Origin: Isoetes taiwanensis
Lineage: Eukaryota; Streptophyta; Lycopodiopsida; Isoetales; Isoetaceae
Direction: 5' to 3'
DNA: 64,000 bases
Assembly (NCBI GenBank): GCA_021234155.1
Contig: JAJEKV010000285.1
Location: 1 to 64,000, forward strand
A model generated the notes under the pieces. The model saw only the letters and a program-made list of their open reading frames with translations. It was not told where the DNA came from and searched no databases. The position numbers and the translations under genes were made by a program. Positions 49,187-59,233 of the stretch are shown piece by piece. Each line of letters begins with the position of its first letter. Positions within the stretch are counted from its first letter, which is position 1.

Positions 49187-49493
49187 CGTACACCAGGGTG
49201 CCCTTAGTTAGGGACGCCTCACATGTCACCGGCAAAAACTTGCCGGACGTCAAGCCGTTGAGCCCCTCAGGTGCAAACTGCTCCAGCAGTTCGGGACGAG
49301 CGGCTCGGACGTCAAACCGGCCGTCTCAGTTTTAGCTCATGTGAATACCTACAAATTTACATGTGAGGCGTCTCTTACCCTGGTTATAGGTCGTGGCACG
49401 ATCATGATCGTGGGTTATTCTACGGGATGGAATCACCAACCGTTGGGATTGCGCCATATCAGCATAACCAGGGTAACTTTATTTTCACCTTAC

Positions 49494-50509: not shown

Positions 50510-50670
50510 GCAAACCATTTCGAAGTATTTTAATATATGTAAGAGTTAAGAGCAAATATGTATGTGGCTGATTCAAGTACTGTGCCTACTGTGTATGTGC
50601 ACAAGATGGGGAACGTGACAACCTACAATGTATTGGGAGGGGGGAGAAGGAGGGGGAGGGACATCGGGGA

Positions 50671-51119
50671 TTGTCTAAAGACATTAATTATGCTGATTGG
50701 GGTGCAAACATTAGCTTCAATGTTGGGGATTCAATGAGTAAGTTTTTCTTGCTTCACATTATTAAAATGTTTTCGTGCTTGATGGATGCCTACTTAAACC
50801 TTTTTGCTTCCACTCTGCCACAGGATTCGGCTTTGATAAATTGTACATATGACCTGGTAGAAGTGAACTTGGATGGATACAAAAACTGTTATACCACTGA
50901 TGTCACATACCTCAATGGCAATATGACCTTCATACTTACAAAAGCGAAGACATATTACTATATCTGCACGAAAGAACATTATGCTCAGCATCTGGTATGA
51001 AGATAGCAGTCACTTCTGGGACTTCCCCTCCAATACGAGTTCTAAATGGCTTATTATCATCCTCACAGTAGTAGGTGCAGTGATTACCTTACTTGTAGCT
51101 TCAATTATTAGGTCCTGAT
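50671..51119 (+). pseudogene. Phytocyanin (plastocyanin-like, membrane-anchored) pseudogene
   Basis: Phytocyanins are secreted, usually GPI-anchored, blue-copper-fold proteins. Exon 1 ends DINYADWGANISFNVGDSM. An 86-bp GT-AG intron (50738-50823) follows, then RFGFDKLY, a frameshift to YDLVEVNLDGYKNCYTTDV, and ITLTKAxTYYFIC-like FILTKAKTYYYIC. A second frameshift leads to MKIAVTSGTSPP, and a third to a hydrophobic tail IIILTVVGAVITLLVASIIR before the stop at 51117-51119. The first copper-ligand His is replaced by Tyr (YDLVEV for HDVVEV), while the Cys in YKNC and a His near the end are kept. The signal peptide exon is missing. Confidence 0.85.
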
Positions 51120-53460: not shown

Positions 53461-53462
53461 CT

Positions 53463-53605
53463 TTTTTGGGTTGCCCCTAGGGGGGCAAACCCTCGTTTAG
53501 GTGGGTTTATGGGCATATCCAGGTATATGCCGGTATATACTTGAGATATGCTGGTGACTGCTAAAAACTGGCTGCTGCAAGTAAACTGGCGGTCAGCCCT
53601 TAGAT
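53463..53605 (+). repeat. Dispersed repeat X, second plus-strand copy
   Basis: TTTTTTGGGTTGCCCCTAGG then GGGGCAAACCC, GGGCATATCC, and GTAAACTGGCGGTCA. Same family as 49494-49640. The GGGTTGCCCC…GGGGCAAACCC core is an imperfect palindrome. Confidence 0.7.
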
Positions 53606-53839
53606 GGCTATGCCCAACAGGGGCATTTTCTTCTGAAAGCAGTAGAAGCTTTAGATGTAAGCTTTGGTATCGTGATCAACCCATCTGGTGTGCGAAGTTT
53701 TGATCCACGATTCTCGAATCTCGATCATCCTAGAATCATCACGGTTTTGCCACCAATCATCACGGATCATCTCTTTTTGAAATATGTCTGGCAGAGTACT
53801 TCGGCCCAGAAATTCTGTTATCTAAAACGTATACTGGAA

Positions 53840-55535
53840 ATGCTAGCTCATTTTTTTTCCCTTGTATATTTTTTCTTCATAGAACGCCGGAGGCTTGTCT
53901 TCCTTCTAAGCTTTCTTTCTTTTACATTTTGTTCCTCCTCTGTACCAGCTCCAGCTCCAGCTCCGGCAATCGATGAAAATGTAAAGCCTGAAGATGAAGG
54001 TGCCTTCTTCTTTTCTTTCTTCCAAGAATCTGTCCTTCAATCCGCTCTGCTTTTGCAGCTTTCTCTCCAGGGATCATTAAACAATCACTTTTTTTTTCTC
54101 TTATTCTTATGCTTACGATTCTGATCTTTGGATTTACACAGTGTGGACATGGTGTGTCGAGGATGAAGACGACATGGAACTCTGCAATAAATTGCAGGAA
54201 ATACTCGACCAGATTAATGATGACACAGAGCGTACTCATAATTGGTATCAAATTTCTTTCTTTTTGACAAATTCCGGCGCAGTCCCCTGTTTTGAACTTC
54301 AATTTCTTGTCATGTAGCACAACTGGAGGAGGGGAGGCCAAAGGATGTATGGCTAAAATCATGAATGGGACGGCTAAATTTGGTATTTTTGATGGCGGAG
54401 AGGTCTTAGAGGCTGCAGATGACTCTTATTTAATCCCCATTCGAAGGCAGATTGATCAGGGTGGAGCAAATAGTTCATACTATGGAGTTGGAGTAGTAAA
54501 GTCCGACAGTTGCCCTGGTAAGCTTCAAGATTTGAAAGGAAAAAAATCCTGCCACACTGGCTATGGAAGATCCGCAGGCTGGGTCTTGCCTGTCACGTAC
54601 TTGATCGATAACAAAATCATGCCTATTGTGGAGAATTGAATCGATTTTGGTTTAACTTAGCTTCTACGAAGAGACCATAGTTTTAGGGCTAAAACAGAGT
54701 TTCTTTTTACTTTTCTTGGTTTTAGATTCTACAAAAAGACCATAGTTTTAGGGCTAAAACAGAGTTTTTTTGTTGGAAACTTTTGGTTCTTACTTAATAG
54801 CTTACAAGTTTGAGTTGAAATGTGCAGAAAACCAGAGGTAAAGAACGATATTGAATCGGTGACGGCATTTTTCAGCAAATCTTGTGCAAAGAAATGATGA
54901 TCCTAGTGCGTAAATTTGCACAAAGATGCATGAATACAACCGGTTGCACGAGGAAGATCCATACTACGACTATGCAGGGCATTCGGATGCCCGGTAGAAG
55001 GAAGCGGAGATGTGGCATTTACAAAGCATTCAATTCCATCCCTATATGCAAAAATGGAGATCCGGAGGAACCAGTGGAAAAATCTTGAGGATTCATCATC
55101 CTACAACATAATCTGTCCAAATCTATACCAAGGAAAGCCGCAAATGGCGAGCTGCAATTTTGGGGCAGCGCCAGGAGCCACACAATTATGGTATCAAAAA
55201 TTTCGACAAACACGAAATCCGTGAATTTAACGATGTGATGGACAAGGCAAATAACAACGAGACCTTCAAGGCTCGTTTAGTGGGAAGAATTTAGAAAGCG
55301 GCGAATTTGTTTGCGGGGTTTCTTCCACAGTTCCATATAATGGCACAAGATAGATGATTTCTTTGGGCTCGTTAAAGGCCAAGATCAAAGAGATGCAGAC
55401 TCGAATGCAAACGAAAATAACCAATGCAGCAAAGCAAGCCTTGCATTTTCCATATCTACCACTGTTAAAGAGCCCGATCCCGGATATGGCAGCTCTGTTT
55501 CTGGTCTTTGCAGTCTTCTTTACTTGACCTCAGGC
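53840..55535 (+). pseudogene. Transferrin-like protein, degenerate multi-exon remnant
   Basis: Transferrins bind Fe3+ with carbonate outside the cell. Exon 1 (from ATG 53840) encodes a hydrophobic start (VFLLSFLSFTFCSS) and a PAPAPA linker to 53999. Intron 54000-54141 follows, then VWTWCVEDEDDMELCNKLQ, the usual WCV…E..KC lobe start. Intron 54245-54317 restores HNCTTGGGEAKGCMAKIMNG. Next come KFGIFDGGEVLEA (Asp ligand position), SSYYGVGVVKSDSCPG (first Tyr), and CHTGYGRSAGWVLPV (carbonate Thr and Arg). After a probable third intron: VKNDIESVTAFFSKSCA, frameshift, HEEDPYYDYAG (second Tyr), frameshift, GSGDVAFTKHSIPSLYAK and SSYNIICPN. The last part ends with the hydrophobic stretch MAALFLVFAVFF. 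At least three frameshifts and an in-frame stop make it non-functional. Only one lobe is seen, and the His ligand is not identified. Confidence 0.82.
54665..54775. repeat. Tandem duplication of about 60 bp within the transferrin-like gene
   Basis: The segment GACCATAGTTTTAGGGCTAA followed by AACAGAGTTT occurs twice with its flanks, in what would be the third intron. Confidence 0.7.
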
Positions 55536-55539
55536 AGCC

Positions 55540-56125
55540 TTTTAACTCAAGATTTTGTAAATGAAAAGAACTGAGATGTGTATGTACAATATTGTTTAGT
55601 CATTTTACAGTCTGGATATAGTAGATTTTAAAAATTTACAATATAGTAGATTTCACTTTTAAACCAGATCGAGAAATTTTCTATTCAAGTTCTCAACCAG
55701 AAATTTGCATTGTCCTTCTAGAAATATGCACAATAATCTACTCCAGATCAACCAAATTTTTTAATTTCAACTCGAACACAAACCTTTACCCTGGAATTTG
55801 CCTAATAGTGGTAGATTTGGGCATGTTTCCAATTGTAGATGTGCATCACGCTTTTAGAGGTTTATTGAAGATAAAAGTGTGATACAAATTTTAAAGGTAA
55901 GAATTGAATTGAATTGAATTGAATTTGTAGCCAATTTTTTCTTTTACTTTGCCATCTACTTTCCTAAAGTATGGAAGATAAATTTAGGTGGATTTCAAAC
56001 TAGACCGGCTGCATTGAAAAATCTTAATTATTGGTCATGATGATGTTCTATCATATTTCTATAGCAAAACTTTCGGCATGTTTTGCCCATCAATCCTCCT
56101 GCCTCGCCGTCCTAGCAAAGCAGAC
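55540..56125. other. No recognisable gene
   Basis: AT-rich spacer between the transferrin-like and DDT-domain remnants. It includes a short (GAATT)n run near 55907-55925. Confidence 0.45.
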
Positions 56126-56130
56126 ATAAG

Positions 56131-57400
56131 CTGAGAAGCATGTGGGAGTTGGCATCTGTTTTAGGTTTCATCAATCAGATTTACAATTCTTTCTTTCAGC
56201 TATTTTGTAAGACATTAGCAACTCAAAGAGTTTGTAGTTGATTGCAGAACTTGATCGACCAATTTCCCCTGAGGATTTGGAGGATGCAATACTGGAGCCA
56301 AATACCAAGCTAGATGATCTGCATGTTGCACTGCTCAAGGTATTCGTATTTGATGGAGCTTTACAAGCAACGAACATTTATTCATTGGAAGGTATGCTTA
56401 TCCATTTCATGTAAGGCCTTGATCAACAATGGTATTCATGCAGGAGATTCCTTGGAAGAGTGAAGTTGGAGGGTAGTTATGTGGCCCAATAAACAAGCAC
56501 TAGACGATGTATCAATATATATTTTTGTTGTTGTAAACCATGTTCTTTTTCATTTTTACACGTTCTATGACAGCAAGACAACTTAGGACATTTGTATATA
56601 AGTCACTAAAAGACCCTAATCAAATAACCATATTTCGAAAAGAGTGCTTTGCGGCAAGCATATGCGGTGCCAATTACTGGTAAGTTTTGGTGCAATGTTC
56701 TATTGATGCTTTTCTAAAACCATATCTTACTAGGTTACTTCAACAGGTGTGAAGAGGATCATCATTCTGGATATAGATTGTACAGGGAGCTGTCAAATAA
56801 ACAAGCTGGCTGTAAAGGACAGTTAATGCCAACTATGCCTAGAAAGTGGGAGACGATCCTAAGCTCCAATTTGAGTTCCATGAGGTGATGGTATGTAAGT
56901 TTGTCATTCTGTAAGATGAGTTTAGTTCTGTACAAAATGGAAAATATAGGTTGTCTCTTTTCTGAAACATGCCTCAATATTAATTACTTACACTAGCCAG
57001 AAACTCATTTACAATCATTTTAATCAAATATTGTCTTTGGGCTTGGCTTAAAACGTGGCTATCCTTTTCTGCCCTTGTAGAATAGGTTATTGTTTTGCCT
57101 CTGTTTATCTGATATTGCCAAAAACTATCTGGTACAAGAACATCCTTTCAGCAAGTAGGAGTTCTGCAGAAGTTGATTTAGCAAAGGAGATTACTTCAAG
57201 AATTACTCCACAGGTGGCAGCGCTTGAGAAGGTACTATGTATACTTGATTTGTCTGGTAGCACTTCTTTACTAAGCTGTATATAATACAGAAAAGAGAGA
57301 ATTTCCTCAAGCGACAACGTAAGCTAGAATGTTTTCTGGATCAGGGGATTGCTAGTGGCTGTTCTCTTAGAGATCGAAAACCAGTGGTATATAATTATGG
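56131..57400 (+). pseudogene. DDT-domain (DDR4/ISWI-associated type) protein, exon remnants
   Basis: DDT-domain proteins partner ISWI-type chromatin remodellers in the nucleus. In order: LRSMWELASVLGFIN (about 56131-56175, DDT start); the exon 56248-56339 reading ELDRPISPEDLEDAILEPNT then KLDDLHVALLK; EIPWKSEVG (from 56444); SGYRLYREL (about 56772, WHIM-like GxRLYRE); RKWETILSSNL; LSASRSSAEVDLAKEITSRI then TPQVAALEK (57147-57230); and KRENFLKRQRKLECF with GCSLRDRKPV (57290-57385). These match the order in plant single-DDT proteins. Several inter-exon joins lack clean splice sites, and the central exons are incomplete or carry stops (for example TAG near 56474), so I treat it as broken. Confidence 0.72.
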
Positions 57401-59233
57401 TGCGCCTAATCGGCATGATATCCTTCCTTATCCTTCCTTCGTAACAGCTCAACAGAATGGAAGATATAGTGTCACAGGAAATGAATTCCGTGACTTCTTT
57501 CTGGGTATAGCACTTGAGACAGAGCCCCTGTTCATCCTCCAGGTTTCAGCTTTGCAACTTATTGGAGAAGTTCATGGGCATGTTATTGACTACCATGCAT
57601 CTGTGTCTCTTAAGCTGTCAATGTTGGCATCACTGATATCTGCAGGCTACAATGGTAGCATGTCAATTCAGTTTGCAGCAAACAATGCATGATCAAGACA
57701 TGATGAAGACAATGAAAGCAGCATTGTTTAGCCATAAAACAATTTTCACTCCATGTTTAATTGTGAATATTATTTCGAGTTCTGTAATAGTATTTTGCAC
57801 TAACCTTAAAAACTATACAAGAAAACAATTGTCACATATCATGTTCCCAACATGCTTAATGATGTCCATATTTATTTTATTTATAGTTTGCCTTGATTTG
57901 GCATGTCTTTCCTTGGTAAATTTCCACGGGGCCATTCAAAAGAAGCTTATCTATTCTAAATTGTTACTGCCATTTAAATAGAGCATTCTAGACTGGCAAG
58001 GATAAAAGAAGAGGCAATGTTTATGGAGGTTAGAACTTCCTCCTTCTAGAGGAGGATTACGCGCTGACAATGTATGGTGGGTGTCTTTAAACTCATCGGC
58101 TCTCAGATAGGTTGTGGCATTGAAGATTGTGATGCTTAAACCTTCTCCACAAGCCAAGTATTTCCTTGAACTAGGGCTTGAATATGGAGAGATGCAAATG
58201 CTATTGTGCCAAGCCGTGTAATCTCTCATGATTCATAATCCCCTTGATTGAATTGGAGTTTTAGGTGACCATCTTGTCAGATTGTTTGCCAATTATTCAA
58301 GCTTGGATGCAGCAAACCAGGCATATAAGAAAAATTACAAGACCTACAATATATACATGCACTGTCGTCATTCCGCAAATAACAATTTGAAATAGGGGGA
58401 ATGCATCCAATGAATTGTACAATAGAATGCAAAAGCGTATGCCTAAAGCTTTTTATCCTGATCTGCTTAATATTTTACAAGTGAAGATGCTCCAGAAGAC
58501 CCAGCCAAACAATGAGATATTCGATGTGTTTACAGCTCCACAGGCTTCGATTTATGTGAGATACTTTCTGCTTGCCTAATAGCAAAGCTTTATTTCGTAT
58601 CATTGTATTCAGTTCTGAAATTCGTGTGTTCTTTATTTTATAAGTTGCCAAAGCCAAACTCTTTGGCTGCATTTTGGAAGATAAAGATATAGAGAATTCT
58701 GTTTCCAAATGTTCAGGGTTATGGTTTTGAATTGATTGCCAAAACATGACTTTGAACTATGATTTAAGCCACTTCACCCTCCGGCCATGGAGGGCAACCC
58801 TCCGTGCGCAGCACCTTGTTCTTGTTGGTATTTAAATTAGTTTAACGTTGTTGTTTATTGCTACTTAAATTAATGTAATAAATTAACATTGTTGTTTATT
58901 GCTACTGTATCAAACAAGCTACTTGTTCAATATGACTTAAACTCCGTTCTTATATGTTTCTTATGTTTAGAAATATGCTTGTCCTTGCATTAGGGTTATT
59001 TGGCTGGCACTGATAGTAGCACATGTTATCATATGCACTAGCATATGCATGACAATGTGCAGTTTACAATAGTTTACATGATTCTTGTATTGCAATATTC
59101 AAATTACAGATAATGAATACAATGATTACACAAAATGTACTCATAGTTGTTTGCAATGGAAATAATTTGTCTGTCTTGATGTTATTATGCTTTTTAATAA
59201 TTAATATTTAGGTCAATAAAGTTTACCTATATT
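57401..59233. other. Unassigned; possible further exons of unknown genes
   Basis: Open frames include RHDILPYPSFVTAQQNG and FRDFFLGIALETEPLFILQ (57400-57692), and NELYNRMQKRMPKAFYPDLL then NILQ with NEIFDVFTAPQASIYV (about 58405-58560). These look like real but diverged coding sequence and I cannot name their families. A short direct repeat, GTTGTTTATTGCTACT, occurs twice at 58850-58910. Confidence 0.3.

Follow-up and report, generated by a model that had tools for sequence, protein, structure and literature searches.

Intact single-lobe transferrin genes and a captured, non-functional transferrin fragment in the genome of the lycophyte Isoetes taiwanensis

The transferrin fragment and the element that carries it

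The window analysed here, a 64,000-nucleotide stretch of the Isoetes taiwanensis genome, contains a broken, intron-containing copy of a gene of the transferrin family (PF00405), whose iron carriers are most familiar from the blood of animals, in a fragment of 2.25 kb, which itself lies inside a repeated element (Table 1). The family assignment, proposed from motifs in a preliminary description of this DNA, was upheld by a profile search in which the exon-3 ORF (54268-54639) matched PF00405 with 60.5 bits (E=2.1e-16), the curated cut-off being 20.3 bits. The exon-4 fragment at 54934-55224 fell under this cut-off when taken alone (14.2 bits, E=0.025) because its reading frame is broken, and the profile gave no match to two further ORFs of the window. 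The motifs listed in the preliminary description are indeed present, in the order given, within approximately 54150-55125, and its account of the residues at the Asp, Tyr, Thr/Arg and second Tyr positions is correct; the His ligand, absent from its list, is thrown out of frame in the window copy by a 2-bp insertion and was found in the intact paralogues (PGHTIMV). The captured fragment begins approximately 34 bp 5' of the ATG position and ends approximately 0.57 kb beyond the position of the stop codon. Its exon 1 has ATA where the paralogues have ATG, with an in-frame ATG upstream; its exon 3 has lost the splice donor by deletion and has an in-frame TGA at 54637-54639; and its exon 4 is broken by a 14-bp deletion together with indels found in the window only.

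Table 1. Positions of the features discussed in the text (window coordinates unless a contig is named)
Feature	Position	Strand	Basis or remarks
Repeated element copy with transferrin fragment	53462..58823	+	Near-identity to the copy on C1030, unrelated flanks
Captured transferrin fragment	53845..56093	+	Common to C445 and C1025, in pieces (DNA-search query 146-2395)
Exon 1 equivalent, signal-like start and PAPAPAPA linker	53879..53999	+	
Exon 2 equivalent (VWTWCVEDEDDMELCNK...)	54142..54244	+	
Exon 3 equivalent, FDGGE (Asp), YYGVG (Tyr), CHTGYGRSAGW (Thr/Arg)	54318..54635	+	PF00405 and alignment
Exon 4 equivalent (YYDYAG, GDVAFTKHS, IICPN, tail)	54828..55527	+	
48 differing alignment columns relative to the C1030 twin	54888..55481	+	27 substitutions, 21 indel columns
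Intact gene	C445:558721-560401	+	Four exons, GT-AG introns
Intact gene	C1025:2556143-2557836	-	Four exons, GT-AG introns

Over 53463-58823 the window copy is 99% identical, apart from short gaps, to a twin on contig C1030, with unrelated DNA on either side. The left end of the element reads TTTTTTGGGTTGCCCC..., and its right end lies near ...GCAGCACCTTGTT (approximately 58820-58828). When up to three mismatches were allowed, the left-end motif GGGTTGCCCCTAGGGGGGCAAACCCT (53462-53495) was found in 6202 copies in the genome (3044 forward and 3158 reverse matches), and the reversed control gave none; the mobile-element family with this end motif is very abundant. On four other contigs (C1045, C658, C996 and C409) the left part of the element and the part from 56094 onward adjoin without the transferrin fragment, the gap between them being 41-49 bp as opposed to approximately 2.25 kb in the window, and the intact genes on C445 and C1025 match only the stretch between these flanking parts. 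On this comparison of sequences the window copy is a dead fragment captured within a repeated element, and the earlier view of it as a resident gene that had simply decayed fails, since the fragment sits inside that element. Inspection by eye found motifs shared by the junctions and the unfilled site (GCCCATC on the 3' side and AAATGCTA on the 5' side), and the fragment was taken into the abundant element perhaps through repair at such short common motifs; the captured, non-functional fragment is present in at least one further copy, that on C1030. Helitrons have TC at the 5' end, CTRR with a hairpin at the 3' end and no target duplication. The 3' end of the element has a short hairpin (CCCTCC..GGAGGG) and its ends show no obvious target duplication by eye, features suggestive of a Helitron-like element, although no clear TC or CTRR was seen.

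Further gene-like pieces lie in the same element at 56238-57692, one of them with a DDT match under the cut-off (E=0.0028), so that captured gene fragments besides that of transferrin may be present in it. Of five neighbouring ORFs of the window scanned with Pfam, three were without any match. The ORF at 50572-51118 is plastocyanin-like (PF02298, E=6.7e-5, over the cut-off), a frame that overlaps it contains a hydrophobic stretch, and a diverged copy of the left end of the element lies near it, at 49493.

The window copy had been described as decayed, and this holds for some of its lesions and probably not for others. The lost exon-3 splice donor with its TGA, the 14-bp deletion in exon 4 and the ATA in place of ATG are common to the window and C1030 copies, so their ancestor copy was already broken; because the twin has the same lost donor and the same deletion, the window copy is still to be read as a real pseudogene. 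The remaining differences between the two are distributed very unevenly, 48 differing columns being crowded into 594 bp, with none in the 1.1 kb before (53749-54887) or the 2.3 kb after (55482-57786); elsewhere in the element the two copies differ at a single position (53748), by a gap of 81 columns at 57787 and in nine columns within 58104-58395, and the 80 bp preceding 53745 also differ. Since the stretches on both sides are identical to C1030, the apparent decay at 54888-55481 looks like assembly error. Such crowding is unlike decay, C1030 generally agrees at these positions with C445 and C1025 against the window, and we regard uncorrected errors in the assembly consensus as the probable explanation. 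The available text of the genome paper describes an assembly built from Nanopore reads and then polished (PMC8566536), which makes uncorrected consensus error a likely cause of the crowded differences. That every break is a sequencing error and the copy a working gene is nevertheless very improbable: the concentration of 48 columns in one short stretch with none around it speaks for such an explanation, but the lost donor with its TGA, the 14-bp deletion and the change of ATG to ATA recur in the C1030 copy, which was assembled separately, and upstream of the window copy the DNA is unlike that of the intact genes.

Intact and broken paralogues

The genome (1,658,258,908 bases in 1110 contigs) was searched with PF00405, giving at least 14 matches at no fewer than eight loci (15 candidates were scored), a number far beyond chance, and a DNA search added a ninth locus, C1018:6.58 Mb, at which a partial copy with broken frames is found. 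The preliminary description had anticipated an intact paralogue elsewhere in the genome, and two were recovered, on C445 and C1025. Each encodes 418 amino acids, the two proteins being 99% identical, and their introns measure 140/134, 92/92 and 192/211 bp; the WCV exon is also found in both. The C445 protein matches PF00405 with E=5.3e-43 (147.9 bits) over residues 44-319, corresponding to profile positions 3-264 of 328. The gene models have one lobe each, rather than the two tandem lobes of the bilobal serum type. A PDB search returned 94 distinct sequences at E<=0.01, the best being melanotransferrin, at 3.7e-63 across its two lobes and 1.2e-31 for the better lobe.

In the alignment both intact copies have the Fe-ligand residues Asp100, Tyr129, Tyr229 and His304, and the carbonate-site residues Thr155 and Arg159 lie within CHTGYGRSAGW. 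Positions D100, Y129, T155, R159, Y229 and H304 align with D63, Y95, T120, R124, Y188 and H249 of the human N-lobe, which we take to be its metal and anion ligands, and K206 of that lobe is also matched. Eight Cys columns of the lobe are invariant in all seven alignment rows, the human C-lobe row being partial. The proline/alanine-rich linker and the possible C-terminal anchor suggested by the window copy both have counterparts in the intact proteins, where PAPAPAPA (PAPAPTPA in C1025) follows a hydrophobic, signal-like N-terminus, identified by hydropathy and reading by eye, and where an anchor-like hydrophobic tail (residues 398-418, by hydropathy) ends the protein. From hydropathy and such reading, a signal peptide is probably present and a GPI anchor is probable. 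A plant host for the gene, also part of the preliminary description, is supported by the position of the intact copies within contigs of 20.9 Mb and 1.26 Mb.

Between C445 and C1025 the coding sequences differ by 14 synonymous and 6 nonsynonymous base changes, two of the 14 being in the stop codon. Exclusion of this codon leaves 12 changes at 272 synonymous sites and 6 at 982 nonsynonymous sites (Fisher p=4.6e-5), a pN/pS of approximately 0.14, or 0.119 when the stop codon changes are counted. Across the introns 16 of 417 aligned bases are different (7/133, 2/92 and 7/192), which is near the synonymous rate. This pattern, obtained from one pair of very similar copies, is that of a working gene and indicates that the intact pair is under purifying selection. 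Longer flanking blocks of the two genes are approximately 89-91% identical, and C445 may represent an allele or homeologue of C1025 that has diverged.

A second set of paralogues, set B (the intact genes being of set A), comprises the four copies found at C1018:28.44 Mb, at C985 (two copies, C985a and C985b) and at C963, none of which is unbroken. Residues were read in the C1018 and both C985 copies, that at C963 being too disrupted for every position to be assigned; these three keep the Asp (LDAG) and the first Tyr, and in them Thr is replaced by Ala, Arg by Thr, the second Tyr by His and His by Asn. With the greater part of the metal site gone from set B, the family includes members that have lost iron binding. 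At its start the C1018 copy has a signal-like sequence of its own; it also has a longer proline/alanine-rich stretch and ends in a hydrophobic tail, and its exon 3 is broken by a 22-bp deletion relative to C985a that is also present in C985b; C985a has a 2-bp deletion in its place. The other three copies match C1018 only over approximately 1.02-1.06 kb, from the end of exon 2 on. The C963 copy (L011, C963:11866000-11873000) has many small indels like those of the window, perhaps reflecting the same uncorrected assembly error.

Relatives and origin of the plant genes

A search of prokaryote genomes yielded 64 stretches that fitted a pattern, of which 24 loci were confirmed; among viral relatives 12 stretches fitted a pattern and none was confirmed. 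Archaea account for 23 of the 24 loci, under the names Euryarchaeota, Poseidoniales, Poseidoniaceae, Thalassarchaeum or marine group II, and we infer that all 23 belong to marine group II; the other is assigned to a 'Deltaproteobacteria bacterium' (L020). These loci (L015-L038, for example L015:1003-3156 and L034:1012-3228) encode transferrin-like, lipoprotein-like proteins of one or two lobes. Compared by eye with the plant protein, those of the Poseidoniales-type Euryarchaeota have similar transferrin-like lobes with Asp, Tyr, Thr, Tyr and His motifs, but differ in having Lys at the position of the anion-binding Arg (CHTGWLKSAG) and a lipobox-like N-terminus.

A tree was built from 18 rows, namely one plant A and one plant B sequence, six animal lobes and ten prokaryote lobes, the last from 8 of the 24 loci, including L020 (labelled MGII). 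It separated plant and animal lobes from prokaryote lobes in 100/100, a split that carries a long-branch warning of false joins, and the only join among the plant and animal rows was that of the ovotransferrin and human C-lobes, the placement of the plant rows being unsupported. Both plant rows have a branch length of 3.1, and because branches of such length may join falsely, the tree is compatible with descent and with transfer alike.

Searches naming transferrin, which covered the literature in part, gave no paper on a vascular-plant transferrin among the matches listed and no land-plant transferrin among the titles of those matches, and the word transferrin is absent from the main texts, as far as these were available, of two Isoetes genome papers (PMC8566536, PMC10541799). 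The lack of any report from vascular plants in the literature so covered, together with the aquatic habit of I. taiwanensis given in the accessible part of its genome paper (PMC8566536), would be in keeping with horizontal gain of the gene from a donor such as an alga or an aquatic animal, as opposed to green-algal descent. We give this some weight but think it doubtful, as the lobe is only 29-34% identical to vertebrate lobes and lies on a very long branch, and as sets A and B have in common a phase-2 intron just before the third cysteine of the lobe and otherwise differ in their introns, A having one that is absent from B and B at least two that are absent from A, a pattern suggestive of a long history within a eukaryote. 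Foreign DNA, present as contamination or through misassembly, is a still weaker explanation. The plants were grown non-axenically under water and a contaminant filter was needed, according to the same portion of that paper (PMC8566536), but one intact copy lies inside the 20.9-Mb contig, other copies lie inside contigs of 18.7-44.6 Mb, and the fragment of the window sits inside an element whose end has thousands of copies in the same genome; given these large host contigs and the 6202-copy element, contamination is extremely improbable and was set aside.

Proposed function and comparison with known systems

The reading that we consider probable is that I. taiwanensis has two intact single-lobe, surface-held, iron-binding transferrins, and that the window copy is a captured, non-functional fragment. 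Our working model of the intact proteins, inferred from their sequences, is that they are probably secreted by means of the signal peptide and that the probable GPI anchor would hold them at the outer face of the plasma membrane, with the short proline/alanine-rich linker acting as a spacer of the lobe. The lobe should then close around a single Fe(III) and a single carbonate, held by Asp100, Tyr129, Tyr229 and His304 together with Thr155 and Arg159, and the closed lobe would concentrate ferric iron at the surface of the cell, where it could be taken up. The intact genes might instead be real and expressed and yet have a surface role other than iron uptake, as do saxiphilin and the inhibitor of carbonic anhydrase, animal transferrins with other functions, and as set B might lead one to suspect, since it keeps the lobe yet has lost the Thr, Arg, second Tyr and His. 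We consider this unlikely for the set A proteins, which retain six of six site residues and are under purifying selection. A wider proposal, which we make tentatively and would rate as possible but short of likely, is that a transferrin route for surface ferric iron, in a one-lobe, GPI-anchored form, was retained or won back in working order by a line of vascular plants, beside the reductive or chelator routes assumed for land plants, and that the paralogue without the metal site acquired a different role before it was broken.

Land plants take up iron by reduction and IRT1 or by phytosiderophores, and to our knowledge this uptake is taught as one without transferrin. Intact, selected transferrin genes in a lycophyte would mean that the ferric-iron handling of animals and algae reached vascular plants, a proposition that can be tested in a living species, and their one-lobe, apparently membrane-tethered design bears on what an ancestral transferrin may have looked like. 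In the green lineage, plasma-membrane transferrins of Dunaliella salina were reportedly described by Fisher in 1997 and 1998 and by Paz in 2007. Like the plant proteins they are green-lineage transferrins, and they lie at the cell surface, the location predicted for the plant proteins; compared by description rather than by sequence, they have triplicated lobes and belong to a unicellular alga, whereas the plant protein has one lobe. The available part of one account ties the plasma-membrane transferrins of Dunaliella to iron uptake and describes binding of ferric iron at the surface of photosynthetic cells, in diatoms, by the phytotransferrin ISIP2a/Fea1 (PMC7676907). The latter (PF07692) is of a different Pfam family from the plant protein, and a search with PF07692 gave no match in this genome or in any of its control genomes, so that the result says little about absence of that family here. 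The animal protein melanotransferrin (PDB 6xr0), the best solved relative, has the transferrin lobe in common with the plant protein but has two lobes, which are 30 and 29% identical to it. Melanotransferrin is GPI-anchored, and we know of no proline/alanine-rich linker in it. With the intact plant genes a known protein family gains a new member in a host where it was not expected, and the layout of this member, one-lobe and probably GPI-anchored, is unusual.
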